Origin: Owenia fusiformis
Lineage: Eukaryota; Annelida; Polychaeta; Sabellida; Oweniidae
Assembly (NCBI GenBank): GCA_903813345.2
Contig: CAIIXF020000004.1
Coordinates: 21,426,477-21,490,476, forward strand
DNA length: 64,000 nucleotides
Reading direction: 5' to 3'
The notes beneath the pieces are model-generated. The model had not been told where the DNA came from and ran no database searches. It saw only the letters and a program-made list of their open reading frames with translations. Below, one piece after another: positions 8,193 to 62,391 of the stretch. Numbering within the stretch: position 1 is the first letter of the stretch; every line of letters begins with the position of its first letter. The translations under genes and the position numbers were made by a program.

Positions 8193-11100
8193 TTATTGAT
8201 TTTGATTTTTAAATAAAACTCTTTTCCTTATATAGAATATTTTTTGCAAATACTTTCCAAAGCATTTAATATATTTTTTATTTTCAAAGATATCTTTAAA
8301 GGAATTGTCTTTGATTTCTTGAAGGAAAGATTTTCGATCTTCTGAATAATGCGAACACTCAAATACAAAATGCGTTTCATTTTCAATTTCATTTGAGTTA
8401 CAAATTTGGCACTGTCTTTGATTTACTGGAGTTTTCGGTTGAGTAAATCTCCCCGTTTCTATTGCTAAAGGAAGTATACCAGTTCTTAACTGAGCTATTA
8501 AAGAGCGTTCACCCCTTGTCAATGATGATGTAAGTAAATACTGTTCTATTGGACAGTCATGTTTAAAAGTTAGGTAAGTCCTCAATTTGGGTTGTGATTC
8601 AATATCTGTACGTAATTTTTCTTGTAATTTTAATTTTAGTTTTCTCTTAACAATGCTGATGTTAACATATTGTTTCTGGTTATAATGATCATTCATCCCT
8701 AACTCATTGAAAATTGATTTTATATCTGAACACCATCCATTAGGTTGATTATAGTCAATATTAAATATTTTTTTGGTGAGTCTATTATTTTCCATGAATG
8801 TGAATCTATTCCATAGACGCACAATATCTAGTGTTCTAGTGTCTTTCGGGGTAAGCCAGCCAGAATCGCTATATAGAGCAGGAATTGAAGCGTATCTATG
8901 AACGCCCATAAATGCACGTATGGCACGTTGGTGAATATAGTCACATTTTTGATAAGGTTTCGCTCCCCAAATACCAGCACTATAGTTCATAATAGGTAAT
9001 ACACATGTGTCATACAGTTTACTGAATGTCTGGAATGATAGTCCTTCATGTGATCTGAATTTAGAAATAAGACCACCAAGTCCTCTGCTTGCTGCTGAGC
9101 TCAGATGTTCTGCTGTAAATGTATAGTCTAATGTTTCGTTGAAGAAGCAACCCAGATATTTGTAGCTTGACACTTTTTCGATTTCAGAATCATTGAAGAC
9201 AAAATTATAGTTCGTTTTAGGCATGGTTTTCCTTCTGAAATGTACAATTTTAGTTTTTCCCATATTTATAGATATTCTCCACTGATTGCACCACATTTTA
9301 ACAATATCGAGCAGCTTTTGTAGATCGGTTTCGCTTTCACAAATCAGAGCAATGTCATCTGCATATAATAAAACGTTTATAAGTTCATCACCATATTTGA
9401 CGCCAATTTGACTAGAGATTATTGTCTTTGCTAGGTCATTTAGGAAGATATTACACAAACAAGAAGAAAGATTATCTCCTTGTTTTAATCCAGCTGTAGA
9501 GGGGAACCAGTTTGTTGTTTTACCATTGAGATTTACTATGTTAGAAGTTCTGCTATACATTGTCCTTAAAGCTCTATACATACGGCCATCAATACCTGCC
9601 TTTGTCAGTTGCATAAATAAACAGTCCCTGTCGATTTTATCAAAACATTTTTCTACATCTATGAAGCATATAAATGTTGATTGTTTTAAATGTTTTCTGT
9701 GGCGTATAATTGTTGTCAATACATACAGATGATCAATACAGGCTCTAAGCTTTCTGAAGCCGTTTTGCTCATCAGCTAGGAACGATTCACTGAAGCACAT
9801 TAGTCTATTACTCAATACTGAACTGTATAACTTACTCATTGAGCACAACAGACTTATTCCTCTATAGTTAAGTGGTATTCTAGGGTCATTTTTACGATTT
9901 TTAGGAATCGGTTTAATTATGGCTCTTCTCCATTGTGAAGGGTATAATCCATGTTTAAAGCATTTATTAAATAAAACTGTTAATAATGATACTGAGGTGG
10001 CATTTTGGAATACTTCACCTGGAAGATAATCAATTCCTATGGCTTTTCCTTTTCTTATTTTGTTTACTGCTGTAATGATTTCATCCATATTTATGTCACT
10101 GTTAATTTCCTTTTCAGGGTCATCATTGTTTTCAAAAATATGCATGTTGTTATCAACCTCTGTTTTGAGGTGTACTAGTTTAGAATAAAATTCATCATCA
10201 AATTCATCTTTATTTGACGCTTCATATAGTTCTCGGAATTGATTTTCCCATGCTAACAAGATCTCATTTTCTTCTCTTAATATCTTGCCATTTATAAGTA
10301 CTTCATTAGGGATTTCAATTTTTTGTTTAGGACCTAATTTACTTATTTCATACCAAAATTCCTTTGGGTTGTTTGTCTTTAATTCATTTATATATATTTG
10401 GGTTCTTATGTTAAAATCTCTTTTAGCTTTTCTTACTGCTTTGTCAAAAGTTGCTTGAGCTAATTTATATTCTCTTAAGAGCTCTTTTTTATTCCTGTCT
10501 CTTTTGAAGTGACATCTATATTTTCTATATCGATTTTCATTCTGACAAAGTTTTTTAAAAAGTTCGTTAAGATTGGAATCCCACCATGGTTTTGGTTTAA
10601 ATCTTGATTTACGTTTTGTGTTTTTTGAAATGTCATGAGAGGGTAGCATATTCAACATTTCATCGTAGTAGATTTCACACACTTTATCGTATGTGTCGTC
10701 GATAGTAGCTTGATTTGCCGATTCATTTTCAATTCTAAGAATTGCTTCATTTAAGCTATTTTGCGTATTGTCATTTTTCAGGAAATTATCTGGAATTTGT
10801 TTTAAGTTAAATTTTCTGTACTTCATTTTATTGCCTTGTTTTTCATCGCCAATTAAGTGGTCTGTTTTATCAGTATACATTGATCGTGTTTCCTTTATTT
10901 CAAAGTCACATAATAAGACTGAGTGGTCAGGCAATTTTGATCTTTGCATTGATGGTGTTAATTCAAAATCTACACAAATTTGTGATACTGGTTTTACTTC
11001 GAAGTGCTTAATATTGCTAATCTGGGGATGGGGAACTATAATGTAGTCAACAACTGCTCGCCCTTTCGGGGATATTGAAGTAAAATCGTTTAATGTGGGA

Positions 11101-11702
11101 TTTATGCGACCATTTAAAATACAGCATTTAGATTCCAAAAGGAATTCTTTAAGTAATTCGCCATGCTTATTTTTTGTGTCATCAATTATGCTGCCTCTAG
11201 GTGGTACTGGATCCAGGTCAATTACATAATCATCTAAATCACTTATTCTGGCATTTAGGTCTCCACATATAATTAATCTATCAATGTCGCTATAGGTGTA
11301 AGTCAATTGAAGTAGGTGATCAAAGAAATTATCACCGTTTCGGCCTCTTTCCCCGCCTTCAGGAGGTAAATAAGCAGCAACTATCATTAATGTCAAATCA
11401 CTGTGAAGGTGGGTAAGTTTTACAGCTAAAATCCCTTCATATGATTTTTCAATAATTTCCGATGAGAATTCTTGTAATAATTGGTTTTTAATTAGAATGG
11501 CCACCCCACCTGATCCACATTTTGCAGTTTTCTTTAGTGACATGCGATTGTGGCCATAAAATATGTATCCCTCAAGACTTATTTTTTGAACATCTTGAAG
11601 CTTAGTTTCGTTGAGGCAAATTATATCGGGGTTAAGTTTTTGAATTATTTGAGATCTAATTGGGCCATTTGAGTTGGTCCATGAGTTTACATTCCAGTGC
11701 AT
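8193..11702 (-). CDS. LINE ORF2: endonuclease and reverse transcriptase
   Basis: A 1169-residue polyprotein for target-primed reverse transcription. Residues about 1-270 form an AP-like endonuclease: HWNVNSW at the start, LNETKL with E32, YLPP at 111-114, GDLNARI with D148 and N150, and LPDHS with D259/H260 at its end. Residues about 540-850 are the reverse transcriptase: NYRGISLLC at 612, EQNGFRK, motif A FIDVEKCFDK with D682, motif B GLKQGDNLSS at 738, and the catalytic YADD at 780-783. A C-terminal Cys-His cluster (C1098, C1101, H1111, C1116; CX2CX9HX4C) may bind nucleic acid. No RNase H was seen. The reading frame actually stays open for 10 codons upstream of this Met, back to the TAG that ends ORF1, and the endonuclease fold plausibly starts in that extension (residues PFNIKC precede the Met). 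There are no frameshifts or internal stops. Confidence 0.92.
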   Translation of the reverse strand: MHWNVNSWTNSNGPIRSQIIQKLNPDIICLNETKLQDVQKISLEGYIFYGHNRMSLKKTAKCGSGGVAILIKNQLLQEFSSEIIEKSYEGILAVKLTHLHSDLTLMIVAAYLPPEGGERGRNGDNFFDHLLQLTYTYSDIDRLIICGDLNARISDLDDYVIDLDPVPPRGSIIDDTKNKHGELLKEFLLESKCCILNGRINPTLNDFTSISPKGRAVVDYIIVPHPQISNIKHFEVKPVSQICVDFELTPSMQRSKLPDHSVLLCDFEIKETRSMYTDKTDHLIGDEKQGNKMKYRKFNLKQIPDNFLKNDNTQNSLNEAILRIENESANQATIDDTYDKVCEIYYDEMLNMLPSHDISKNTKRKSRFKPKPWWDSNLNELFKKLCQNENRYRKYRCHFKRDRNKKELLREYKLAQATFDKAVRKAKRDFNIRTQIYINELKTNNPKEFWYEISKLGPKQKIEIPNEVLINGKILREENEILLAWENQFRELYEASNKDEFDDEFYSKLVHLKTEVDNNMHIFENNDDPEKEINSDINMDEIITAVNKIRKGKAIGIDYLPGEVFQNATSVSLLTVLFNKCFKHGLYPSQWRRAIIKPIPKNRKNDPRIPLNYRGISLLCSMSKLYSSVLSNRLMCFSESFLADEQNGFRKLRACIDHLYVLTTIIRHRKHLKQSTFICFIDVEKCFDKIDRDCLFMQLTKAGIDGRMYRALRTMYSRTSNIVNLNGKTTNWFPSTAGLKQGDNLSSCLCNIFLNDLAKTIISSQIGVKYGDELINVLLYADDIALICESETDLQKLLDIVKMWCNQWRISINMGKTKIVHFRRKTMPKTNYNFVFNDSEIEKVSSYKYLGCFFNETLDYTFTAEHLSSAASRGLGGLISKFRSHEGLSFQTFSKLYDTCVLPIMNYSAGIWGAKPYQKCDYIHQRAIRAFMGVHRYASIPALYSDSGWLTPKDTRTLDIVRLWNRFTFMENNRLTKKIFNIDYNQPNGWCSDIKSIFNELGMNDHYNQKQYVNISIVKRKLKLKLQEKLRTDIESQPKLRTYLTFKHDCPIEQYLLTSSLTRGERSLIAQLRTGILPLAIETGRFTQPKTPVNQRQCQICNSNEIENETHFVFECSHYSEDRKSFLQEIKDNSFKDIFENKKYIKCFGKYLQKIFYIRKRVLFKNQNQ

Positions 11703-11732
11703 ACATTTAATGTTGAAGGGCTGGCAATCATC

Positions 11733-12908
11733 CTATGCCCATTGGTTATCATTTTCATTTGGTTGTCTGTTTCTGTGAATAGTTCCTCTTCCTCTGTTTT
11801 GTCCTCGTCCTCGTCCACCTCGGGGTCCAGATCCTCTCCCTCTCCAAGCTTGTCCCGGATCCAGGTTCCGGTTCTCATTTTCTTTCTCTTGCTCGGGAGA
11901 TTTTTTCACTAGTCTTCCACTCCCTGTTATGATGAACTCATCTCCACCTGGGATGCATTTCAACATTTCTCTGGTGTTCAGCTCCAATAATCTTTCTTGG
12001 TGAGATTTGGCTCCATTAATATAAATATTGTGGAATTTTTGTTTTTCATTCAGAGTTTTCTTTCTTCTGAGAAGAGCTATTTTATTTTCCTTTGTTTTCA
12101 GTTGGACTTTGATAACTCCAGGTTTATCATTCCGTGACTTTGTTCTTTCTGCTTTAACAAGCATTTTACTCTCCATTCCGAGACCTTCGCAGATGACCAT
12201 GTTGGCTTTTTTAGTAACATCTTCGTTGTTATGATAGGGGACATTTCTAATGATCACACTTGTTTCAGGTGCGAAGTCTTCTGTTTGAATGATCTTTTTT
12301 GGAATATTTGATTCAAAGTCATGCATTCTTTTGTCCATTTCCTTGCACTGTTTATCAATTTTATGTTCAAAGGCTAAAGCTCCCTGTTTAAAGGAGTCCA
12401 TCTCGGTTTCAAACTTCGTTTCAACCCCTTTTACGAAGGATTTTATTTCTCTTAACTCTCGTTGTACTTCAGTTTTGATGGTCTTGACCAGTTCGTCCTT
12501 AATAGATTGTATTAATTTATCCTTCACACAGGCTACTAATTCTGTTTTAACTGACTCAATCAATTCATGTTTTATACTTTTAAGTAAGTCGTTTTTTAGA
12601 TCTGGGAGAAAGTCAGCAATGGGGCTGGAGTCTGGATTTGGGAAATTAAGGGTCTTTGGGGGTAGGGAATATGCAGCATCAGGAGTGTTAATGTCAGGAT
12701 TTTTGCAGGGTGTATGATTATCCTTCGATTGGTCGTTGTCATCAGTTGAGATTCCTGGTGTTGTAAGGCTTTCGGATATACGATGATGCTTGGCTGCAGG
12801 AGTAGATGTGGTACTTTCATCATCCCAAGATGATGGCGTTGATGACCAAGCTTTCTTCCAGCTTTTCCGCTTAGTGCGCTTACGTTTGCTACCACTACCT
12901 CTGCTCAT
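11733..12908 (-). CDS. LINE ORF1: coiled-coil, RRM-like RNA-binding protein
   Basis: 391 residues. The N-terminus is basic (KRKRTKRK near residue 8), followed by a Ser/Thr/Pro-rich linker to about 100. Residues about 104-200 form a strongly predicted coiled coil built on repeats like LIQSIKDELVKTIK. Residues about 215-300 begin TSVIIRNVPY and look RRM-like. Residues about 355-380 form an RGG/RGRG box. This is the usual layout of a LINE ORF1 nucleic-acid chaperone that coats the element RNA. It ends in TAG, and ORF2 follows in the same frame with 30 nt from TAG to the first ATG. The ATG context is AACCATGAG. The family assignment is by architecture only. Confidence 0.85.
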   Translation of the reverse strand: MSRGSGSKRKRTKRKSWKKAWSSTPSSWDDESTTSTPAAKHHRISESLTTPGISTDDNDQSKDNHTPCKNPDINTPDAAYSLPPKTLNFPNPDSSPIADFLPDLKNDLLKSIKHELIESVKTELVACVKDKLIQSIKDELVKTIKTEVQRELREIKSFVKGVETKFETEMDSFKQGALAFEHKIDKQCKEMDKRMHDFESNIPKKIIQTEDFAPETSVIIRNVPYHNNEDVTKKANMVICEGLGMESKMLVKAERTKSRNDKPGVIKVQLKTKENKIALLRRKKTLNEKQKFHNIYINGAKSHQERLLELNTREMLKCIPGGDEFIITGSGRLVKKSPEQEKENENRNLDPGQAWRGRGSGPRGGRGRGQNRGRGTIHRNRQPNENDNQWA

Positions 12909-14380: not shown

Positions 14381-14735
14381 CTTAGTCTGCTCACGTTTAT
14401 TTCTCTCCATTTCTCTCTAAAATTTGAATCAAGCGTCTGATTTTCTTGCATTTCTATATACAGTAATACCTGTATATAATCAACATATATGGAGCCAGAA
14501 AAGGTGTTCACTGTAGGTAGATGTTCACTACAGAGAGGGTAGGAGTCAATACAGGAGTTAATGTTAAATGTGTCTTGAAGTGGTGTTTAAACACAGGTGT
14601 TCACTATAAAGAGGTGTTCACTATAAGACAAGTTTTACTGTAATTAAGAGTAAAGACAACATCTCTGTTTACTTTATTACTCGCTGATTGCGCTCTTTTA
14701 CTCGATGTTTTATTTAGATAATATGATTCCTAGAT
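14381..14735 (+). repeat. 190 bp MITE-like repeat, copy C, split by a pogo-like MITE
   Basis: The 5' half runs to TTGCATTTCTATA at 14460 and the 3' half resumes at TAATTAAGAG (14641), reaching CTGTTTACTTTATT and GTTTTATTTAGAT. The interruption is exactly the element at 14461-14640. Confidence 0.75.
14461..14640. mobile_element. pogo-like MITE nested in copy C
   Basis: 180 bp. It starts CAGTAATACCTG and ends AAGTTTTACTG, flanked by TA on both sides (14459-14460, 14641-14642). It contains GGTGTTCACTATAAAGAGG words. Terminal CAG/CTG and TA duplication fit the pogo/Tigger branch of Tc1/mariner. It is non-coding. Confidence 0.8.
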
Positions 14736-17466: not shown

Positions 17467-17695
17467 AAGTTAAAACCTGTCAAGTGGAACACATCTGTAA
17501 GTGAAACACTTCTGTAAGTGGAACATCTAAGTGGAAAACATCTGTAAGTGGAACACCTCTGTAAGTGGAACACCTCTGTAAGTGGAACACCTCTATAAGT
17601 AGAACACCTCTATATGCAAAACATCTTTATCAGTAGAATATCTCTATGTGTGGACCACCTCTATAAGTGGACCATCTTTATAAGTGGGAACAGGG
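17467..17695. repeat. pogo-like MITE with 17 bp internal tandem array
   Basis: The left end reads AGTTAAAACCTGTC, then about a dozen monomers of AAGTGGAACACCTCTGT, progressively diverged to the right (GTGTGGACCACCTC). The clear CTG-TA right end is lost. The monomer is the subterminal word of the family. Confidence 0.75.
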
Positions 17696-21168: not shown

Positions 21169-21260
21169 ATTTCAACAATGTTATGTCTTTGGGCTATCTT
21201 ATACCATTTACTAAAATGCCTATTAAGTATTACCTGAGATTCAAATCACATTAGTAATCT

Positions 21261-21689
21261 CTTCCAAGGCATCACTTACTCCAAACAATTTAATATACTG
21301 ATTCTTCCAAGGCATCACTTACTCAAAACAATTTAATAAACTGATTTTTCCAAGGCATCACTTACTCCAAACAATTTAATATACTGATTCTTCCAAGGCA
21401 TCACTTACTCCAAACAATTTAATATACTGATTCTTCCAAGGCATCACTTACTCCAAACAATTTAATAAACTGATTCTTCCAAGGCATCACTTACTCCAAA
21501 CAATTTAATATACTGATTCTTCCAAGGCATCACTTACTCCAAATAATTTAATAAACTGATTCTTCCAAGGCATCACTTACTCCAAAGAATTTAATATACT
21601 GATTCGTCCAAGGCATCACTTACTCCAAACAATTTAATATACTGATTCTTCCAAGGCATCACTTACTCCAAACAATTAAATATACTGAT
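21261..21689. repeat. 43 bp tandem repeat, about 10 copies
   Basis: The unit includes TTCCAAGGCATCACTTACTC and CAAACAATTTAATATACTGA. Units alternate between AATATACTG and AATAAACTG variants. Starts at 21262 and 21305 fix the period at 43 bp. It ends against the SINE body. Confidence 0.9.
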
Positions 21690-23420: not shown

Positions 23421-24170
23421 AAAAAATTTGTAGAGACACTGGGTATCCAATAGAGAACACTTCCTATTAAGAAATGCATCTCTCAAAGCACTTTTCAAAA
23501 GTCCAATTGAATTCTCCTGAAAGGAATACCTGTTTTAGAAAGAATTGTGGCTAGTCTGATGAAGGGTGTTCCATAACAACATGTTTTGCGTATATGTTGC
23601 AAGGTTTCCCCTAGAGTCTACTGTGACCCTTGGCGACCCATGATTATGTGACCTGAGGTCAAGGTTATATTTTGAGGTAACATCAAGTTTTTCTGTTCCA
23701 CTCGAATGGATAGAATATCTAGAATGCTAGTGTGATTAATATGCTCTTGAATAAATACATTTATGTTACACATTTAGTAAGATAGAACATACTTTATTTT
23801 TTATTTATTACTTGATAAGAACAAACTACTACAGATACATCATCTTATAAGCTACAAGGAGCTGTGCATGTTAAAGTGTCAAATTAATCCACCTGTAAAG
23901 ATGTATAGATATAGAGAAGATGTACTGAAATTACTTAGAAACTTAGCAAATAAAAACATTATGAAGTGCACTAATAATAAGAAGGATATAGGGAATGTAT
24001 TGAATTTATTTGGCTTTATTTAGGTGGTATTATTGAAATACTAGGGAGTTTAAGCTTGTATATAAAATCGAAACGCCAACCTGTACGTATGACCAATCGC
24101 CCATACAAATGCATCGCTTAAATATTTTCCATTCAGGTTTAGGTTGTGAAAAACAGTGCATGCTTAATAA
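23421..24170. other. non-coding, nothing recognised
   Basis: AT-rich sequence with no supportable gene or repeat. Confidence 0.4.
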
Positions 24171-24174
24171 GAGG

Positions 24175-24287
24175 TTATGTCACTATCGTGGCATATATGC
24201 CCGAGGTCTCAGTGATATATGGCCCGTCCTTGTGAGGGACATTGATCTCTGAGAACCGAGGGCATATGTGCCACAATAGTGACATAA
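24175..24287. repeat. 113 bp imperfect palindrome
   Basis: TTATGTCACTATCGTGGCAT at the left is mirrored by GTGCCACAATAGTGACATAA at the right; the centre also pairs (CTCAGTGATAT near 24212, ATTGATCTCTGAG near 24240). It could fold into a long hairpin. It abuts the next TIR element and the two may form one compound unit. Confidence 0.7.
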
Positions 24288-24291
24288 ATGA

Positions 24292-24545
24292 TTTATAACA
24301 TACCTATGATGATGTAGACTGGTCAGAGAGTACCGTTTTCTTATAGAATTGACAAACAAATGGTTTGAAAATGATTGAAATGAGTTTAAAAAAATTGCTC
24401 GCGCAGTTTTATCTTCGATTGATTGGTTATGACGTCAGCGCCTTGACCAATCAGAAAGTTAGCGGGCGCGGGCATTTCAAAACTTATATTGGCCCGCTGT
24501 CTTGTGTACACTTCGCACTATACATCATCATAGGTATGTTATAAA
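24292..24545. mobile_element. MITE with ATAACATACCTATGATGATG ends
   Basis: A near-perfect TIR of about 24 bp bounds 254 bp. The interior is more GC-rich and carries a promoter-like block (see 24422-24451). Non-coding. Confidence 0.75.
24422..24451. promoter_or_regulatory. CRE flanked by inverted CCAAT boxes
   Basis: ATTGG (24422-24426), TGACGTCA (24430-24437) and CCAAT (24447-24451) lie within 30 bp. These match consensus CREB/ATF and NF-Y sites. Functional binding is inferred only. Confidence 0.5.
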
Positions 24546-24577
24546 CTCCCTTATTATCTGTCTTTCTATTCAGAATA

Positions 24578-27500
24578 TAAACTGTACCTGCCTATTGTGA
24601 ACTCCATTGGAACATACTTCTGTATAGAATACCTCTTCTGTAGTGAACACCTGTTTCTTGTGAACTCCATTGGAACATACTTCTGTATAGAATACCTCTT
24701 CTGTAGTGAACACCTGTTTCTTGTAAACTCCATTGGAACATACTTCTGTATAGAATACCTCTTCTGTAGTGAACACCTGTTTCTTGTAAACTCCATTGGA
24801 ACATACTTCTGTATAGAATACCTCTTCTGTAGTGAACACCTGTTTCTTGTGAACTCCATTGGAACATACTTCTGTATAGAATACCTCTTCTGTTATGAAC
24901 ACCTGTTTCTTGTGAACTCCATTGGAACATACTTCTGTATAGAATACCTCTTCTGTTGTGAACACCTGTTTCTTGTGAACTCCATTGGAACATACTTCTG
25001 TATAGAATACCTCTTCTGTAGTGAACACCTGTTTCTTGTGAACTCCATTGGAACATACTTCTGTATAGAATACCTCTTCTGTAGTGAACACCTGTTTCTT
25101 GTGAACTCAATTGGAACATGCTTCAGTATAGAATACCTCTTCTGTAGTGAACACCTGTTTCTTGTGAACTCCATTGGAACAAACTTCTGTATAGAATACC
25201 TCTTCTGTAGTGAACACCTGTTTCTTGTGAACTCCATTGGAACATGCTTCTGTATAGAATACCTCTTCTGTAGTGAACACCTGTTTCTTGTGAACTCCAT
25301 TGGAACATACTTCTGTATAGAATACCTCTTCTGTAGTGAACACCTGTTTCTTGTGAACTCCATTGGAACATACTTCTGTATAGAATACCTCTTCTGTAGT
25401 GAACACCTGTTTCTTGTGAACTCCATTGGAACATGCTTCCGTATAGAATACCTCTTCTGTAGTGAATACCTGTTTCTTGTGAACTCCATTGGAACATGCT
25501 TCTGTGTAGAATACCTCTTCTGTAGTGAATACCTGTTTCTTGTGAACTCCATTGCAACATACTTCTGTATAGAATACCTCTTCTGTAGTGAATACCTGTT
25601 TCTTGTGAACTCCATTGGAACATACTTCTGTATAGAATACCTCTTCTGTATTGAACACCTGTTTCTTGTGAACTCCATTGGAACATACTTCTGTATAGAA
25701 TACCTCTTCTGTAGTAAACACCTGTTTCTTGTGAACTCCATTGGAACATACTTCTGTATAGAATACCTCTTCTGTAGTGAACACCTGCCTATTGTGAACT
25801 CTATTGGAACATACTTCTGTATAGAATACCTCTTCTGTAGTAAACACCTGTTTCTTGTGAACTCCATTGGAACATACTTCTGTATAGAATACCTCTTCTG
25901 TAGTGAACACCTGCCTATTGTGAACTCTATTGGAACATACTTCTGTATAGAATACCTCTTCTGTAGTGAACACCTGTTTCTTGTGAACTCCATTGGAACA
26001 TACTTCAGTATAGAATACCTCTTCTGTAGTAAACACCTGTTTCTTGTGAACTCCATTGGAACATACTTCTGTATAGAATACCTCTTCTGTAGTGAACACC
26101 TGTTTCTTGTGAACTCCATTGGAACATGCTTCTGTATAGAATACCTCTTCTGTAGTGAACACCTGTTTCTTGTGAACTCCATTGGAACATACTTCAGTAT
26201 AGAATACTTCTTCTGTAGTGAACACCTGTTTCTTTTGAACTCCATTGGAACATACTTCTGTATAGAATACCTCTTCTGTAGTGAACACCTGTTTCTTGTG
26301 AACTCCATTGGAACATACTTCTGTATAGAATACCTCTTCTGTAGTGAACACCTGTTTCTTGTGAACTCCATTGGAACATGCTTCTGTATAGAATACCTCT
26401 TCTGTAGTGAACACCTGTTTCTTGTGAACTCCATTGGAACATACTTCAGTATAGAATACTTCTTCTGTAGTGAATACCTGTTTGTTGGGAACTCCATTGG
26501 AACATACTTCTGTATAGAATACCTCTTCTGTAGTGAACACCTGTTTCTTGTGAACTCCATTGGAACATACTTCTGTATAGAATACCTCTTCTGTAGTGAA
26601 CACCTGTTTCTTGTGAACTCCATTGGAACATACTTCTGTATAGAATACCTCTTCTGTAGTGAACACCTGTTTCTTGTGTACTCCATTGGAACAAACTTCT
26701 GTATAGAATACCTCTTCTGTAGTGAACACCTGTTTCTTGTGAACTCCATTGGAACATACTTCTGTATAGAATACCTCTTCTGTAGTGAACACCTGTTTCT
26801 TGTGAACTCCATTGGAACATACTTCAGTATAGAATACCTCTTCTGTAGTGAACACCTGTTTCTTGTGAACTCCATTGGAACATGCTTCTGTATAGAATAC
26901 CTCTTCTGTAGTGAACACCTGTTTCTTGTGAACTCCATTGGAACATACTTCAGTATAGAATACCTCTTCTGTAGTGAACACCTGTTTCTTGTGAACTCAA
27001 TTGGAACATGCTTCAGTATAGAATACCTCTTCTGTAGTGAACACCTGTTTCTTGTGAACTCCATTGGAACATGCTTCTGTATAGAATACTTCTTCTGTAG
27101 TGAACACCTGTTTCTTGTGAACTCCATTGGAACACGCTTCTGTATAGAATACTTCTTCTGTAGTGAACACCTGTTTCTTGTGAACTCCATTGGAACATGC
27201 TTCTGTATAGAATACCTCTTCTGTAGTGAACACCTGTTTCTTGTGAACTCCATTGGAACATGCTTCTGTATAGAATACCTCTTCTGTAGTGAACACCTGT
27301 TTCTTGTGAACTCCATTGGAACATACTTCTGTATAGAATACCTCTTCTGTAGTGAACACCTGTTTCTTGTGAACTCCATTGGAACATACTTCTGTATAGA
27401 ATACCTCTTCTGTAGTGAACACCTGTTTCTCGTGAACTCCATTGGAACATACTTCTGTATAGAATACCTCTTCTGTAGTAAACACCTGTTTCTTGTGAAC

Positions 27501-29537
27501 TCCATTATAACATTCTTCTGTTTAGAATACCTCTTCTGTAGTGAACACCTGTTTCTTGTTAACTCCATTGGAACATGCTTCTGTATAGAATACCTCTTCT
27601 GTAGTGAACACCTGTTTCTTGTGAACTCCATTGGAAAATACTTCTGTATAGAATACCTCTTCTGTAGTGAACACCTGTTTCTTGTGAACTCCATTGGAAC
27701 ATACTTCTGTATAGAATACCTCTTCTGTAGTAAACACCTGTTTCTCGTGAACTCCATTGGAACATACTTCTGTATAGAATACCTCTTCTGTAGTAAACAC
27801 CTGTTTCTCGTGAACTCCATTGGAACATACTTCTGTATAGAATACCTCTTCTGTAGTGAACACCTGTTTCTTGTGAACTCCATTGGAACATACTTCTGTA
27901 TAGAATACCTATTCTGTAGTGAACACCTGTTTCTTGTGAACTCCATTGGAACATGCTTCTGTATAGAATACCTCTTCTGTAGTGAACACCTGTTTCTTGT
28001 GAACTCCATTGGAACATGCTTCTGTAAAGAATACCTCTTCTGTAGTGAACATCTGTTTCTTGTGAACTCCATTGGAACATGCTTCTGTGTAGAATACCTC
28101 TTCTGTAGTGAACACCTGTTTCTTGTGAACTCCATTGAAACATACTTTTTGTATAGAATACCTCTTCTGTAGTGAACACCTGTTTCTTGTGAACTCCATT
28201 GGAACATGCTTCTGTATAGAATACTTCTTCTGTAGTGAACACCTGTTTCTTGTGAACTCCATTGGAACACGCTTCTGTATAGAATACTTCTTCTGTAGTG
28301 AACACCTGTTTCTTGTGAACTCCATTGGAACATACTTCTGTATAGAATACCTCTTCTGTAGTAAACACCTGTTTCTTGTGAACTCCATTGGAACATGCTT
28401 CTGTATAGAATACCTCTTCTGTAGTGAACACCTGCCTATTGTGAACTCTATTGGAACATACTTCTGTATAGAATACCTCTTCTGTAGTGAACACCTGTTT
28501 CTTGTGAACTCCATTGGAACATGCTTCTGTATAGAATACCTCTTCTGTAGTGAACACCTGTTTCTTGTGAACTCCATTGGAACATACTTATGTATAGAAT
28601 ACCTCTTCTGTAGTGAACACCTGTTTCTTGTGAACTCCATTGGAAAATACTTCTGTATAGAATACCTCTTCTGTAGTGAACATCTGTTTCTTGTGAACTC
28701 CATTGGAACAAACTTCTGTATAGAATACCTCTTCTGTAGTGAACACCTGTTTCTTGTGAACTCCATTGGAACAAACTTCTGTATAGAATACCTCTTCTGT
28801 AGTGAACACCTGTTTCTTGTGAACTCCATTGGAACATGCTTCTGTATAGAATACTTCTTCTGTAGTGAACACCTGTTTCTTGTGAACTCCATTGGAACAT
28901 GCTTCTGTATAGAATACCTCTTCTGTAGTGAACACCTGTTTCTTGTGAACTCCATTGGAACATACTTCTGTATAGAATACCTCTTCTGTAGTGAACACCT
29001 GTTTCTTGTGAACTCCATTGGAACATACTTCTGTATAGAATACCTCTTCTGTAGTGAACACCTGTTTCTTGTGAACTCCATTGGAACATGCTTCTGTATA
29101 GAATACCTCTTCTGTAGTGAACACCTGTTTTTTGTGAACTCCATTCGAACATACTTCTGTATAGAATACCTCTTCTGAAGTGAACACCTGTTTCTTGTGA
29201 ACTCCATTGGAACATACTTCTGTATAGAATACCTCTTCTGTAGTGAACACCTGTTTCTTGTGAACTCCATTGGAAAATACTTATGTATAGAATACCTCTT
29301 CTGTAGTGAACACCTGTTTCTTGTGAACTCCATTGGAACATGCTTCTGTATAGAATACCTCTTCTGTAGTGAACACCTGTTTCTTGTGAACTCCATTGGA
29401 ACATACTTCTGTATAGAATACCGTAGTGAACACCTGTTTCTTGTGAACTCCATTCGAATCCTCTCTGTAGTGAACACCTCCCATCAAGCATTACCATTTG
29501 CAGCTTGAAAGGTGTTCATAATGCTTAGGTTTCACTG
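24578..29537. repeat. giant 63 bp minisatellite inside a pogo-like element
   Basis: About 77-78 units of 63 bp from about 24590 to 29480. Each unit comprises three related ~21 bp subunits containing GTGAACTCCATTGGAAC, CTGTATAGAATACCTCTTC and GTAGTGAACACCTGTTTC. The block is entered through a degenerate left end (AAACTGTACCTGCC) and left through GGTGTTCATAATGC and AGGTTTCACTG-TA (CTG at 29535-29537), the right end of the pogo-like family. Unit variants include CTGCCTATTG, ACACGCTTC and CTTCAGTATAG. There is a +1 T near 28145 and a short unit near 29420. Because 63 is divisible by three and the unit has few stops, very long open frames exist on both strands; I regard them as non-coding. Confidence 0.9.
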
Positions 29538-29827
29538 TATTAAGTGAATTTAATGTATTAGTTATTCAATGTGAGGTCAGTCTATTTAATCTCCAATTGC
29601 ATTTCTAGACAATTACTCCCCAGTTTCTCTTAGGGGTGTTTCAATACATTCCATGGTGTTTTATGTCATGACATTTTGCTAAAAGGTTTGCACTTTGAAT
29701 ATGTTTCTGATGTCATTAGTATTTTATTCTGTCTGGTTTAAAATACTTTCAAGCTTTTGATTGTTGTGCAGAATCCATCTAAAATTAGGATTGTGATCCA
29801 TGAACACAATCGAAAGAAGAGAAAAGA
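29538..29827. other. non-coding, nothing recognised
   Basis: No supportable feature. Confidence 0.4.
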
Positions 29828-34920: not shown

Positions 34921-35725
34921 GTACCATTGGTACTGTTTTGGCTATAGTAGTTATGGTCCTGTATGTTAAAGTTATGATACTGTTTTGGCTATGGTATTTA
35001 TGGTCCTGTATGAGTTATAGTACTGTTTTGGCTATAGTACTTATGGTCCTGTATGGCATGGCTATGGTACTGTTTTGGCTATGGTACTTATGGTCCTGTA
35101 TGGCACAGTTATGGTACTGTTTTGGCTATGGTACTTATGGTCCTGTATGGCACAGTTATGGTACAGTTTTGGCTATAGTACTTATGGTCCTGTATGGCAC
35201 AGTTATGGTACTGTTTTGACTATGGTACTTATGGTCCTGTATGGCACAGTTATGGTACTGTTTTGGCTATGGTACTTATGGTCCTGTATGGCACAGTTAT
35301 GGTACTGCTTTGGCTATGGTACTTATGGTCCTGTATGGCAGAGTTATGGTACTGTTTTGGCTATGGTACTTATGGTCCTGTATGGCACCGTTATGGTACT
35401 GTTTAGGCTATGGTACTTATGGTCCTGTATGGCACAGTTATGGTACTGTTTTGGCTATGGTACTTATGGTCCTGTATGGCACAGTTATGGTACTGTTTTG
35501 GCTATGGTACTTATGGTCCTGTATGGCACCGTTATGGTACTGTTTAGGCTATGGTACTTATGGTCCTGTATGGCACAGTTATGGTACTGTTTTGGCTATG
35601 GTACTTATGGTCCTGTATGGCACCGTTATGGTACTGTTTAGGCTATGGTACTTATGGTCCTGTATGGCACAGTTATGGTACTGTTTTGAATATGGTATTT
35701 ATGGTCCTGTATGGTACAGTTGACT
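34921..35725. repeat. 47 bp tandem repeat, about 17 copies
   Basis: The unit includes GGTACTGTTTTGGCTATGG, TACTTATGGTCCTGTATGG and CACAGTTAT. The array is most regular from 35090; a CACCGTTATGG variant paired with GTTTAGGC recurs every third or so unit. Several overlapping frames stay open through it and are not genes. Confidence 0.9.
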
Positions 35726-38715: not shown

Positions 38716-39071
38716 GTGCATCTATTTTGCTTGGCCCAATGTTGCTCTTTTTGTTTCTGTAATCATTTTAAGCTAAGACGGGTGGCCTATTGTAATCACC
38801 CACTTGTTTAAACTAAAATTACCACAGCATGGGAACTCATTGATGCAGTTATGCAGTTATGTAAACATTGACAGCGTGTTGACAGTTGGTAGCCAAATAA
38901 CCATAATTTTGACATGATTATTTGTCTGGTATTTTTTAACTCCTCTTTAAAATTTCAATGACATTTCTGTACTATTTGAGTTTTGACAAGAGCCCTATTT
39001 TGGTGTGTAGCATTAAAGCACATGGCAGGTTGGGAACTTGCCATGTTAAAACATTAAAAAAACAGTATATA

Positions 39072-39222
39072 CAGTAAAACCTGTCTTAGTGAACATCTTT
39101 CTCTAGTGAACACCTGCATTTAGTGAACACCGCTTCAAGACCACTTTAAATTGACTCCTGTATATAATCCCCTCTCTCCAGTGAACACCTAAGGTGAACA
39201 CTTTTTGTGGGTAATTTTGCTG
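39072..39222. mobile_element. pogo-like MITE
   Basis: TA-CAGTAAAACCTGTCTTAG at the left with several AGTGAACACCT words; the right end is degraded to GGTAATTTTGCTG-TA. Confidence 0.7.
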
Positions 39223-39232
39223 TAATTATACT

Positions 39233-40250: not shown

Positions 40251-40533
40251 ATACTGTAAATAAAGCCTTATGGTTAAGAAACATGATAGCCCAGGCAACA
40301 ATAGTCGGTATGTGTTAAAAATTAACCACGTTAATGGTTTGGTAAGTCAATGTAACCTTAATGTACAATGTTGTAATGAAATATATAATTTATATAATTT
40401 ATACATGCTAATCCGATACTTAGCTAAATACACATACCAGTCAACAGGAAAAATGTTTTGCCGTATTGTCAATTTTTTAGTCAGGTGTGATCAATTTTTT
40501 TGTAGCCCTTTACATATTTTGCATTTATAAATA

Positions 40534-40696
40534 CAGTGAAACCTGTTAAGTGGAACACCTCTGTTCGTGGAACACTTTTCTGAGTCCCAAGACCAACTGA
40601 CTTAATGTTTAATGAACTTCTAAAGGTAGAACACCTCCCAAGTGGATCACTTAATTTAGAGGTACCAAAGGTGTTCAGCTTAGACAGGTTCTACTG
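40534..40696. mobile_element. pogo-like MITE, near-complete
   Basis: 163 bp: CAGTGAAACCTGTTAAGTGG at the left and GACAGGTTCTACTG at the right, TA both sides. A good reference copy: it shows AACACCTCTGTTCGTGG, CCAACTGACTTAATG and AACACCTCCCAAGTGG in order. Confidence 0.85.
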
Positions 40697-41510
40697 TATA
40701 CATATCATATATACTTATCTCGTATATATATGTACTTAGTCCTAGGTTTCCAAGAAGTATGAGTTGATATATGTTTTGCAGTGTTGCTGGAGTCATTGAC
40801 TTTAATTAATTAGGTTCATAAGGTTTCATTAGGTGTTTTTCTTATGCTTGGGTAGACTAGAGCCGCAGGTGAAAATATTACACGACAGGAAAATTAAAGA
40901 CAAAAGTAAGACAAATATAATTGCAGAATATACACATGCAGAGATGCTATAAAGTCTAGGAAAAACAAATATGCAACTTACATTAGAATATATCAGGAAA
41001 AGGCCGCAATTGCATTTATTATTATTCGAGAAAGCATAAAAGGTTGTTTTAGGATTTGTTATCTACTTTTACATAGAGGTATCTTTTAGTTTGAGGGAAA
41101 TGTTCAGTTAACTTTCAGAAGGAGAAAATCAATCAGAGGGGATAATGTTAACAATTATATTCAGGAACAACTTTGCGATATTAACTTGGTCCCTTAACTC
41201 CTTAATATTATTACAGTACATTGAAACACCCACATGTTGAATAAATCAAAAAATATTGTAAACTTATTATTATGGTACAATGGGAGACAGATGACACATA
41301 AAATTTTAATTAAATTGCCAATTTAGTAATATATTACAAACTGAAAAACTCTTTAAAAGAGAGCAGCAGACCTTATCTTGTTATGATCTATGATCATATA
41401 AATATAATCATTATCATTTCATATTTTATTACCAGTTTTTTAAGTTGACCCACCTGTTACTTGTGATATCATAACAAGGTAAATAGCCCTTGCTAGAAAT
41501 GAATGCTCTT
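40697..41510. other. non-coding, nothing recognised
   Basis: AT-rich sequence with no supportable gene. Confidence 0.4.
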
Positions 41511-45788: not shown

Positions 45789-45821
45789 GTACATTATCAA
45801 GTGATACCTGATTTTATATTA

Positions 45822-45991
45822 CAGTTAAACCTGTCTTAGTGAACCTAGTGAACACCTCTATCTAGTGAACACCTGTTTCTAGTGCACACCCCTTTTAAGG
45901 ATAATCTCAATTGACTTCTGAGTAAAATTGCCTCTCTGTAGTCAACACCTGAGTATATTTTTGTGGTGTTCACTGTACACAGGTTTTACCT
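45822..45991. mobile_element. pogo-like MITE
   Basis: TA-CAGTTAAACCTGTCTTAG at the left, then CTAGTGAACACCTCTAT twice in near tandem; the right end ACAGGTTTTACCTT has lost its final CTG. Confidence 0.7.
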
Positions 45992-46215
45992 TCTTGAGTG
46001 TCATCAATATGTTTTCAAACCAATAAGTTATCTGTTATGGTCAGAGGTTATTATTGCTAGTTCATTTGGATCAGGGTAATCAGACATAGTGATATTCCCA
46101 AACTCAGGTTTTACCTTGTGAAAGTATGTTAACCTTAACTACATCCTTGAATTGATTTAATTATGTATATCTGATGTAATGGCCCCAAAAGGGAACTTCA
46201 CACGTAATTTATGAG

Positions 46216-50244: not shown

Positions 50245-50397
50245 TCATATTCCTTATTATATTATATCTATATTTATTTTTATTTTTTTCAGATGCAAGC
50301 AAATTTTGAATCTGAGAGATATGATTATTGTTTATGTCAGCTTCAAAAATTGATGACATATTGTTATTGCTACCATTTTTGTGATCAGCATTGATAG

Positions 50398-50655
50398 TCA
50401 GTGTCTGTAACACTTGTTACACAATTACACTGTCAGTGTCTGTAACACTTGTTACACAATTACACTGTCAATGTCTGTAACACTTGTTACACAATTTTAC
50501 ACTGTCAATGTCTGTAACACTTGTTACACAATTACGCTGTCAGTGTCTGTAACACTTGTTACACAATTACACTGTCAGTATCTGTAACACTTGTTACACA
50601 ATTGCACTGTCAGTGTCTGTAACACTTGTTACACAATTACACTTTTATAATTGCA
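50398..50655. repeat. 35 bp tandem repeat, about 7 copies, in the intron
   Basis: The unit contains GTCAGTGTCTGTAACACTTG and TTACACAATTACACT. It includes the small palindrome GTAACACTTGTTAC. It starts about 160 bp after the donor. Downstream it runs into GCAGTGACATTTGGT, a dispersed motif. Confidence 0.9.
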
Positions 50656-55123: not shown

Positions 55124-55374
55124 AAAGTAATGAATCAACAAACTCAAAAAGGAGTGAACTTGTTCAATATAATGCAATTTAAACTTACTCCTTACATTAG
55201 ATTTTGAATCTATATGGTGAGTCTTCCATCCCGTTGATGATCAAATCCATAAATTCCAATGGCCACTACGACGCCAGCTCTATTCACGGGTTTGCGGTGT
55301 GTTGAGCTGTTCTGAGCATTTCATCATCAGTAGCATCAAATAACCTGGAACACAAACAGAAGTGCTACACTTGT

Positions 55375-56680
55375 TATATTCTTTTATGGAAGGTTCTATC
55401 TTGGGTCAACCTAGGTTCTATCCTGTGTCAACATAGGTTCTATCTTGTGTCACAATTTAAAGTACTTCTTAAATTGTTTTATGAAAGGTTCTATCTTGTG
55501 TCGACCTAGGTTCTATCTTGTGTCAACATAGGTTCTATCTTGTGTCACGATTTAAAGTACGTGTTATCTTGTTTTATGAAAGGTTCTATCCTCTGTCAAC
55601 ATAGTTCTATCTTGTGGTACGATTCAAAGTACTTGTTATATTGTTTTATGAAAAGTTATATCTTGTGTCAATCTAGGTTCTATCCTGTGTCAACATAGGT
55701 TCTATCTTGTGTCACAATTTAAAGTACCTGTTATATTGTTTTATGAAAGGTTCTATCTTGTGTCAACCTAGGTTCTATCCTGTGTCAAAATAGGTTATAT
55801 CTTGTGTAACGATTTAAAGTACTTATTATATTGTTTTATGAAAGGTTCTATTTTTGTGAACCTAGGTTTTATCCTGTGTCAATATAGTTTCTATCTTGTG
55901 TCACGATTTAAAATATCTGTTATATTTTTTATGAAAGGTTCTATCTTGTGTCAGTCTAGGTTCTATCCTGTCAACATGGGTTTTATCTTGTGTCACGATT
56001 TAAAGTACGTGTTATATTGTTTTATGAAAGGTTCTATCTTGTGTCAACATAGGTTCTATCCTGTGTCAACATAGGTTATATCTTGTGTCACGATTTAAAG
56101 TACGTGTTATATTGTTTTATGAAAGGTTCTATCTTGTGTCAGTCAACCTAGGTTCTATCCTGTGTCAACATAGGTTATATCTTGTGTCACGATTTAAAGT
56201 ACGCGTTATATTGTTTTATGAAAGGTTCTATCTTGTGTCAACCTAGGTTCTATCCCGTGTCAACATAGGTTATATCTTGTGTCACGATTTAAAGTACGTA
56301 TTATATTGTTTATGAAAGGTTCTATCTTGTGTCAACCTAGGTTCTATCCTGTGTCAATATAGGTTCTATCTTGTGTCACGATTTAAAGTACTTGTTAAAT
56401 TGTTTTATGAAAGGTTCTATCTTGTGTCAACCTAGGTTCTATCCTGTGTCAACATAGGTTCTATCTTGTGTTACAATTTAAGGTATACTTATCAAATTGT
56501 ATTATAAAAGGTGCTATCTTGTGTCAACCTAGGTTCTATCCTGTGTCAACATAAGTTCTATCTTGTGTTACGATTTAATAATACTCGTTAAATTGTTTTA
56601 TGAAAGGTTCTATCTTGTGTCACCATAGTTTTGTCTTGAGTCACACTTTAAGGTACCTACAAAAACGTTTCATGAAAAGA
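55375..56680. repeat. 95 bp higher-order tandem repeat, about 13 copies
   Basis: Each unit has three related ~23 bp subunits, AGGTTCTATCTTGTGTCAAC, AGGTTCTATCCTGTGTCAAC and AGGTTCTATCTTGTGTCACG, followed by a unique spacer with TTTAAAGTACNTGTTATATTG and TTTTATGAA. Some units lack one subunit (near 55575-55620 and 56020-56060). Confidence 0.9.
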
Positions 56681-62073: not shown

Positions 62074-62391
62074 CTCTGAAGTGTTCCACTCATGGAGGGG
62101 TTCCGCTTAACAGAGGTGTTCCAATCTACAGGTTTTACAAAGTGTTCCACTCATGGAGGGGTTCCGCTTATCAGAGGTGTTCCAATCTACAGGTTTTACA
62201 AAGTGTTCCACTCATGGAGGGGTTCTGTTTAGTAGAGGTGTTCCAATCTACAGGTTTTACAAAGTATTCCACTCATGGAGGGGTTCCGCTTAATAGAGGT
62301 GTTCCAATCTACAGGTTTTACAAAGTGTTCCACTCATGGAGGGGTTCAGCTTAATAGAGGTGTTCCAATCTACAGGATTTACCTTGTACTG
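62074..62391. repeat. 61 bp tandem array of a pogo-like right end
   Basis: About 5 units containing AAGTGTTCCACTCATGGAGG, GGTTCCGCTTAACAGAGG and TGTTCCAATCTACAGG followed by TTTTAC. The last unit leads to ACAGGATTTACCTTG and ACTGTA. The left end of the element is not preserved. Confidence 0.85.

Follow-up and report, generated by a model that had tools for sequence, protein, structure and literature searches.

How a long tandem repeat comes to end on the terminus of a small transposon is the question raised by a locus of the annelid Owenia fusiformis. The locus lies in a stretch of 64,000 nucleotides (GenBank assembly GCA_903813345.2, contig CAIIXF020000004.1, positions 21,426,477 to 21,490,476 of the forward strand), here called the window, and consists of a minisatellite of 63-bp units whose right border is the right end of a miniature inverted-repeat transposable element (MITE). 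The original prediction, made from the letters alone, was that the minisatellite had grown inside a single pogo-like transposon, and it is sound in its central claim and half correct in its details. We argue that the array probably arose where it stands, by local unequal exchange or slippage seeded by short words repeated within the MITE, and was then homogenised.

The array and its host family

Tandem Repeats Finder (TRF) places a tandem array with a period of 63 at 24595-29458, counting 77.3 copies at 96% matches. The array of about 78 units that had been predicted is therefore real, although, cut at its own anchor, it yields 77 units, of which 75 measure 63 bp, one 64 and one 57, followed by a 78th, rearranged unit. 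With head-to-tail units within the range of roughly 10-100 bp (63 bp x 77), it is a minisatellite. The 75 units of exactly 63 bp diverge from their consensus by 2.18% on average, 16 of them being identical to it, and carry 19 shared and 18 private variants.

The host family was defined from 25 copies in a common orientation, which are 91-95% identical to a consensus of 182 bp. This consensus has TA at both ends, from which individual copies deviate, the terminal inverted repeats (TIRs) CAGTAAAACCTGT and ACAGGTTTTACTG, and the ends TACAGTAAAACCTGT and ACAGGTTTTACTGTA. Five words close to AGTGAACACCT start at consensus positions 19, 36, 53, 112 and 129, at spacings of 17, 17, 59 and 17. An element of 182 bp has no space for a gene, and being short, non-coding and TIR-bearing it is a MITE, as is also indicated by its high copy number and unrelated flanks. 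The search for the family returned 2159 candidates (best 40 scored); its right end occurs at 276 places with at most one mismatch and at 49 exactly, the control giving 0. By eye, the flanks of the 25 copies differ, except that L010 and L011 have common flanks and were counted as one insertion. The window itself contains unexpanded copies and an element of a sister type, recognised by the word GGAACACCT:

14459..14642, minus strand: unexpanded MITE copy with both ends
39070..39230, plus strand: unexpanded MITE copy with left end and words; right limit approximate
45820..45993, plus strand: unexpanded MITE copy with worn right end; right limit approximate
40532..40698, no strand assigned: sister GGAACACCT-type element with both ends

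The consensus combines a TA target site with CAGT-type ends. These termini fit pogo-like elements, and the pogo/Tigger group of Tc1/mariner is a candidate assignment. The transposase domain DDE_1 (PF03184) has 19 genome matches at E values up to 0.001 (27 candidates scored). No inverted end pair of an autonomous pogo partner was found within about 1.5-1.9 kb on each side of 16 of these 19 matches, a negative that would miss intron-split or more distant transposases; eight of the 16 loci contained stray one-mismatch matches of the TIR or the word.

The unit is the core of the MITE

Over its full length, the 63-bp unit can be aligned to the MITE core, which extends from the second to the fourth word and measures 76 bp in the consensus; about 13 bp of it are absent from the unit. 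The alignment scores 63.5 against the core of subfamily A and 59.0 against that of subfamily B, compared with a maximum of 23 over 1000 shuffles. As judged from this alignment, the unit is the MITE core between two words, a 76-bp block cut to 63 bp, and we treat the core as one block because the same block stands in tandem at other loci.

The steps originally proposed were different: a subterminal word, then a trimer of words of about 21 bp, then a long array. Such stepwise growth would draw on real precedents, as word-level arrays exist elsewhere (17 bp x 12.8 in the window and 16-21 bp at other loci), and within the MITE no internal repeat scores higher than that at a spacing of 17. The unit, however, does not look like a trimer. 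In its best 21-mer frame the mean pairwise identity is 17%, compared with 26% for shuffles, its autocorrelation peaks at lags of 18 and 15 rather than 21, and its word starts are spaced 17, 18, 17 and 11 by eye. The alignment to the core, moreover, covers parts of the core that are not words. We therefore reject the unit as a trimer of 21-bp words, and growth in the order word, trimer, array is most improbable as the origin of a unit that corresponds to a whole block of the MITE, found in tandem at other loci too.

A length of 63 bp also corresponds to 21 codons, so that the array could be imagined to encode a repeat protein. Open frames of 1191 amino acids on the plus strand and 1167 on the minus strand do cross it (bacterial start codons allowed); four of the six unit frames are open, and the open plus frame has a stop in one of 76 units (the 57-bp unit left out). 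A length divisible by three, however, keeps a repeated frame open without selection, and the distinct variants in the open plus frame comprise 8 synonymous, 30 non-synonymous and 1 stop, where 9.9, 26.6 and 2.5 are expected. Since the variants show no bias to synonymous sites, we reject the array as a gene and give a coding repeat next to no credence. At gathering thresholds, Rfam gave no match in the window.

The right border of the array is the right end of the MITE

The features that make up the locus are as follows:

24586..24594, plus strand: partial unit ACCTGCCTA at the left array edge, from the sequence; outside it lies no recognisable transposon end
24595..29440, plus strand: 77 tandem units with the consensus TTGTGAACTCCATTGGAACATACTTCTGTATAGAATACCTCTTCTGTAGTGAACACCTGTTTC, from TRF, the unit list and variant counts
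29441..29480, plus strand: last unit, rearranged and shorter by about 19 bp, which ends at MITE word 4 (GTGAACACCTC, 29470-29480)
29457..29537, plus strand: right part of the host MITE, with the TIR AGGTTTCACTG at 29527-29537, from the consensus alignment
29538..29539, no strand assigned: bordering TA on the right, in keeping with the target-site duplication of the family, from the exact AGGTTTCACTGTA and the TA in the 25-copy consensus

Positions 29457-29539 align to positions 98-182 of the MITE consensus, its final 85 bp, TIR and TA included, with a score of 76, against maxima of 57 over 1000 shuffles and 38 over 292 other 101-mers of the window. Because of this alignment the right border of the array is the right end of the MITE, with an unbroken transition between them. 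The good right end of the TA-CAG...CTG-TA type that had been predicted is thus confirmed, with AGGTTTCACTGTA exact at 29527-29539. A search with the right-edge sequence gave 3 candidates, the sequence itself and two relatives elsewhere in the genome at 77% identity, one of the two a copy of an abundant short element.

On the left, the array breaks off at 24586, partway through a unit. The degenerate left end AAACTGTACCTGCC that had been predicted there could not be upheld. The bases left of ACCTG are equalled or beaten in their match to the TIR by 72% of sampled window 11-mers, and a looser left-end alignment to the TIR is equalled by 14% of shuffles; with such controls scoring as well, a left TIR at 24576-24589 was rejected. 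What stands of the claim that the array grew inside a single element is accordingly its right side, together with the origin of the unit in the sequence of the element, whereas the left end is not recognisable.

Between the array and the next element on this side, positions 24546-24585 were considered as a worn extra unit and rejected, the match being equalled by 52% of shuffles and by 40% of 1093 real 40-mers. That next element is the following:

24292..24545, no strand assigned: unrelated MITE with inverted ends TTTATAACATACCTATGATGATGTA, about 40 bp left of the array and a neighbour only; limits by eye

This neighbour looks young, as its right part has 39 other places at 96-99% identity (best 40 of 474 candidates scored). 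No left end of the host was seen beyond it in 23800-24300, by eye only and with no computation. Immediately to its left, at 24175-24290, is a stretch that looks hairpin-like by eye (TGTCACTATCGTGGCATAT ... CCACAATAGTGACA).

The one-sided border raises the possibility of capture, in which the satellite came first and either a MITE end adjoins it by chance or a MITE took it up. The left end not found at the locus would suit such an order of events, and a capture model has been proposed for miDNA4 of Xenopus (PMC12628747). Against this, ordinary MITEs with a single core show homology to the unit in that core, and at the right edge the sequence passes through word 4 and on to the terminus of the MITE without losing register. 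We regard capture as very unlikely here, and local growth from the MITE core as the better account of the junction.

Possible turnover within the array

Deletions are present in the last two units of the array. Deletions in edge units are expected for an array that turns over by unequal exchange. The spacer GCCTA replaces GTTTC at the left edge and in the internal units 19, 21 and 61, and by eye GCCTA is similar to what separates words 4 and 5 in certain MITE copies, such as L026; because of this similarity, exchange may have used either of two word pairs, both 76 bp apart. Shared variants plotted by lag did not exceed shuffles (top value 0.25; shuffled 95% value 0.28), which gives no sign of higher-order repeats in the array; for this test one base was removed from the 64-bp unit and the 57-bp unit was padded with six gaps. 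Two unit pairs, 40-41 and 58-59, are alike by eye, and the block test, which requires three or more units, would not list pairs.

The same core is in tandem at other copies of the MITE

A search of the genome with two units returned three candidates, one of them the window; the other two, at C12:6.04 Mb and C8:21.26 Mb, match at 80-82% over 44-56 bp. No second 63-bp array was found in this search, the best other match being 82% over 56 bp. A check suggested with the original prediction, whether the 63-bp satellite occurs widely outside such elements, was thereby run in part: the search gave no second array, and the two other matching loci are MITE copies with cores of the 76-bp type. At C8:21.26 Mb two core copies are flanked by worn MITE ends, and at C12:6.04 Mb 14 core copies are flanked by good ones. 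When two units of the C12 array were used as the query, 131 matches were obtained in the best 40 of 1517 candidates.

A first set of 21 array loci, which includes C8 and counts C12:6.04 Mb as one locus, and a second set of 20 further loci were analysed with a core model, nhmmer matches under 80% of the model being set aside. The first set contains 36, 21, 17, 14, 14, 12, 10, 8, 6, 6, 5, 5, 4, 3, 3, 3, 3, 2, 2, 2 and 1 core units, that is, at least two in 20 of the 21 loci, and the core copy number across copies of the MITE ranges from 1 to 77. TRF periods in the first set are 72-80 bp at 14 loci, 89 bp at one and 109-116 bp at four, while L053 has an array of the 17-bp word only and L055 has no TRF array. 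Eight of the 20 loci of the second set have a core pair 75-86 bp apart, two have wider pairs (L090, spacings of 120 and 88; L091, 166) and ten a single match. At L030 a second core match is on the opposite strand. A TIR, recognised by at most three mismatches in 15, borders the array on the left at 15 of the first 21 loci, on the right at 12 and on both sides at nine, among them L053. With a unit derived from the inside of the element and a copy number that differs between copies, these are probably transposon-derived satellites of the kind of miDNA4, Xstir and Tetris.

Most units are closest to others of their own array: 233 of 253 have their nearest neighbour there (all 77 in the window and 156 of 176 elsewhere). 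Eight of the 20 exceptions fall in three loci on C7, L045, L046 and L047. This trio has common arrays of about 114 bp, made of the core and the right-hand word, and yet the flanks, cut at hand-set array limits, are at shuffle level in six of six comparisons. An alternative for the window is therefore that the expanded core was made elsewhere and arrived by transposition of a multi-unit element, since common arrays with unlike flanks suggest that such elements may move. Two of the three C7 loci, however, are about 19 kb apart, which makes a local event also possible there, and the genome search found no second 63-bp locus that could be the source, although a source locus could have been lost. 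Arrival by transposition is in our view unlikely, if less so than capture, and growth in place is preferred.

Candidate seeds inside the element

Because the element carries the five words, it contains a direct repeat of 20 bp at a spacing of 76 bp, around words 2 and 4: CCTCTCTCTAGTGAACACCT at 27-46 and CCTCTCTGTAGTGAACACCT at 103-122 of the consensus are identical at 19 of 20 positions. This is the only direct repeat of at least 16 bp with at most one mismatch in the consensus. Among eight one-copy elements of subfamily B, the repeat is identical at 20 of 20 positions in four (L078-L081) and at 17-19 of 20 in the other four. The 20-bp repeat is thus a candidate seed, which would have served as the substrate at this locus.

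The following steps would account for the array. The starting point would be a 182-bp non-autonomous DNA transposon with five near-identical words, in which the segment bounded by words 2 and 4 would have been duplicated through unequal exchange or replication slippage. About 13 bp were lost from the segment, as the alignment shows, at a stage that we can only infer. Growth to 77 units would have followed, with homogeneity kept by further unequal exchange or conversion; homogenisation is suggested by the divergence of only 2.2% and by units that resemble only their own array. The element kept its right end, while its left end would have decayed or been lost. The same core has multiplied at other copies of the family, to between two and 36 copies per locus.

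Evidence that weighs against local growth of the core

Several observations count against this account. The first is the left border, where the end of the MITE is not recognised and the TIR match is at chance level. Secondly, the 76-bp spacing is not the strongest seed: when more mismatches are allowed, a spacing of 17 outscores it (19 versus 17 in subfamily A; 22 versus 20 in B), with 93 ranking next after these two, joined by 59 in B. The element offers several seeds, as these scores show, and our confidence in local seeding is lowered because 17, not 76, is the spacing of the strongest internal repeat. Thirdly, the array loci were found with a two-unit query of 76 bp, which biases them towards periods of 72-80 bp and gives no rate. 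A fourth point is that, from their common arrays and unlike flanks, some expanded copies (L045-L047) may have moved when already expanded.

A further point concerns frequency. We examined 47 of the 49 exact right ends, and only one, L113 (G000:C6:13736723-13737203), has a tandem period of more than 60 bp; there a segment comprising the right half of the MITE with its terminus and a short piece of flank occurs twice in tandem, 112 bp apart, and the repeat is not the core. Judged by this sample of well-preserved right ends, a given copy therefore seldom has its core expanded.

The core also has competitors as a unit of growth. Three exact words occur at spacings of 60-90 bp at 483 places (40 for a control with the pattern backwards), at 28-58 bp at 490 places including one 51-bp array (control 46) and at 92-122 bp at 345 places (control 1). 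The first 100 of the 483 places, merged within 2 kb by eye and classified by eye, correspond to 22 loci on C1-C3, of which three are arrays of the 76-bp core, 12 are word arrays of 16-36 bp and seven are other or unclear, one of these with a 64-bp unit. With word arrays at 12 of the 22 loci and the 76-bp core at three, growth seems to proceed more often by the word, the 76-bp core being one register among several. A junction pattern (913 places) did not separate arrays from ordinary contexts of words 1 and 2 and was not used as a count.

Three word-bearing arrays stand in the window, 17 bp x 12.8, 63 bp x 77 and 61 bp x 5, the first and the last being of the sister GGAACACCT type:

17477..17692, plus strand: sister-type element, word array of 17 bp x 12.8, CTGTAAGTGGAACACCT, from TRF
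62079..62382, minus strand: sister-type element, 61 bp x 5, the unit comprising the terminal repeat and three GGAACACCT words, from TRF

Longer word arrays occur elsewhere in the genome, such as one of about 1.7 kb, mainly in the 17-bp register, at G000:C3:17285885-17287588 and one of about 1 kb of the 21-bp word GTGAACACCTTTTTAAATACA at G000:C1:61897114-61898131.

Finally, the genome may expand repeats in general, because the window also holds minisatellites without the words, at 21260-21689 (43 bp x 10), 34928-35721 (47 bp x 17), 50397-50643 (35 bp x 7) and 55369-56622 (95 bp x 11).

Other features of the window

A LINE-like element (long interspersed nuclear element) occupies 8193-12908, with minus-strand frames of 1169 and 391 amino acids, the longer of which contains RVT_1 and Exo_endo_phos. 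A frame of 373 amino acids at 49188-50309 matches 7tm_1 over residues 304-367 and is perhaps an exon of a rhodopsin-type receptor gene.

Discussion

MITEs with tandem repeats have been recorded in other animals. Scalvenzi and Pollet (2014) reportedly described miDNA4 as MITE and satellite in Xenopus tropicalis, Hikosaka and Kawahara (2004) are said to have found Xstir arrays in the Xmix MITEs of Xenopus, and tandem-repeat MITEs are, by the title of a paper, also reported from the clam Donax trunculus. The growth of MITE-internal sequence into satellites is a known process in Xenopus and Drosophila (PMC12628747, PMC9659126, PMC4079207).

The miDNA4 family, which comprises a MITE and a satellite (PMC12628747, PMC9659126) and for which capture of a prior repeat has been proposed (PMC12628747), resembles the present one in being a MITE of the Tc1/mariner type whose internal unit is single or in arrays of variable length, with short direct repeats as the proposed seed. 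The seeds differ, as that of miDNA4 is described there as AT-rich microhomology, whereas the candidate here is a 20-bp repeat from the subterminal words of the element itself. Xstir likewise consists of MITE-derived tandem repeats with MITE, array and composite forms; a stem-and-loop excision model has been described for it, while the unit limits here fit direct repeats (PMC12628747, PMC9659126). The TIR-220 repeats of Tetris in Drosophila virilis are a further parallel, being internal tandem repeats of a non-autonomous DNA transposon that have become arrays. They reach up to 66 copies, with unequal crossing over as a possible cause, a suggested link to transposase binding sites and amplification favoured in beta-heterochromatin (PMC4079207). 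Tetris is, however, a foldback element with repeats of roughly 220 bp inside its TIRs, whereas the host here is a 182-bp MITE and the unit its core between words (PMC4079207). Among the titles and abstract openings consulted, there was no minisatellite grown between the subterminal words of a pogo-like MITE.

It is tempting, though rather doubtful, to go further and propose that repeated words, as putative transposase binding sites, make the architecture of such a MITE a built-in generator of minisatellites. The spacing of the words would preset the periods that can grow (17, 34, 51, 76, 93 and so on), and the dozens to hundreds of binding sites in long arrays could soak up transposase or attract a CENP-B-like protein.

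The origin of satellites is usually argued from end products. Here, one family in one genome presents the core in one, two, three, five, eight, fourteen, thirty-six and seventy-seven copies, with some loci keeping both ends of the element, and this copy-number series within one genome is the useful part of the finding. Together with a candidate seed that can be read in the element, these stages make it possible to test, with alleles and reporter constructs, how a transposon gives rise to a tandem repeat.

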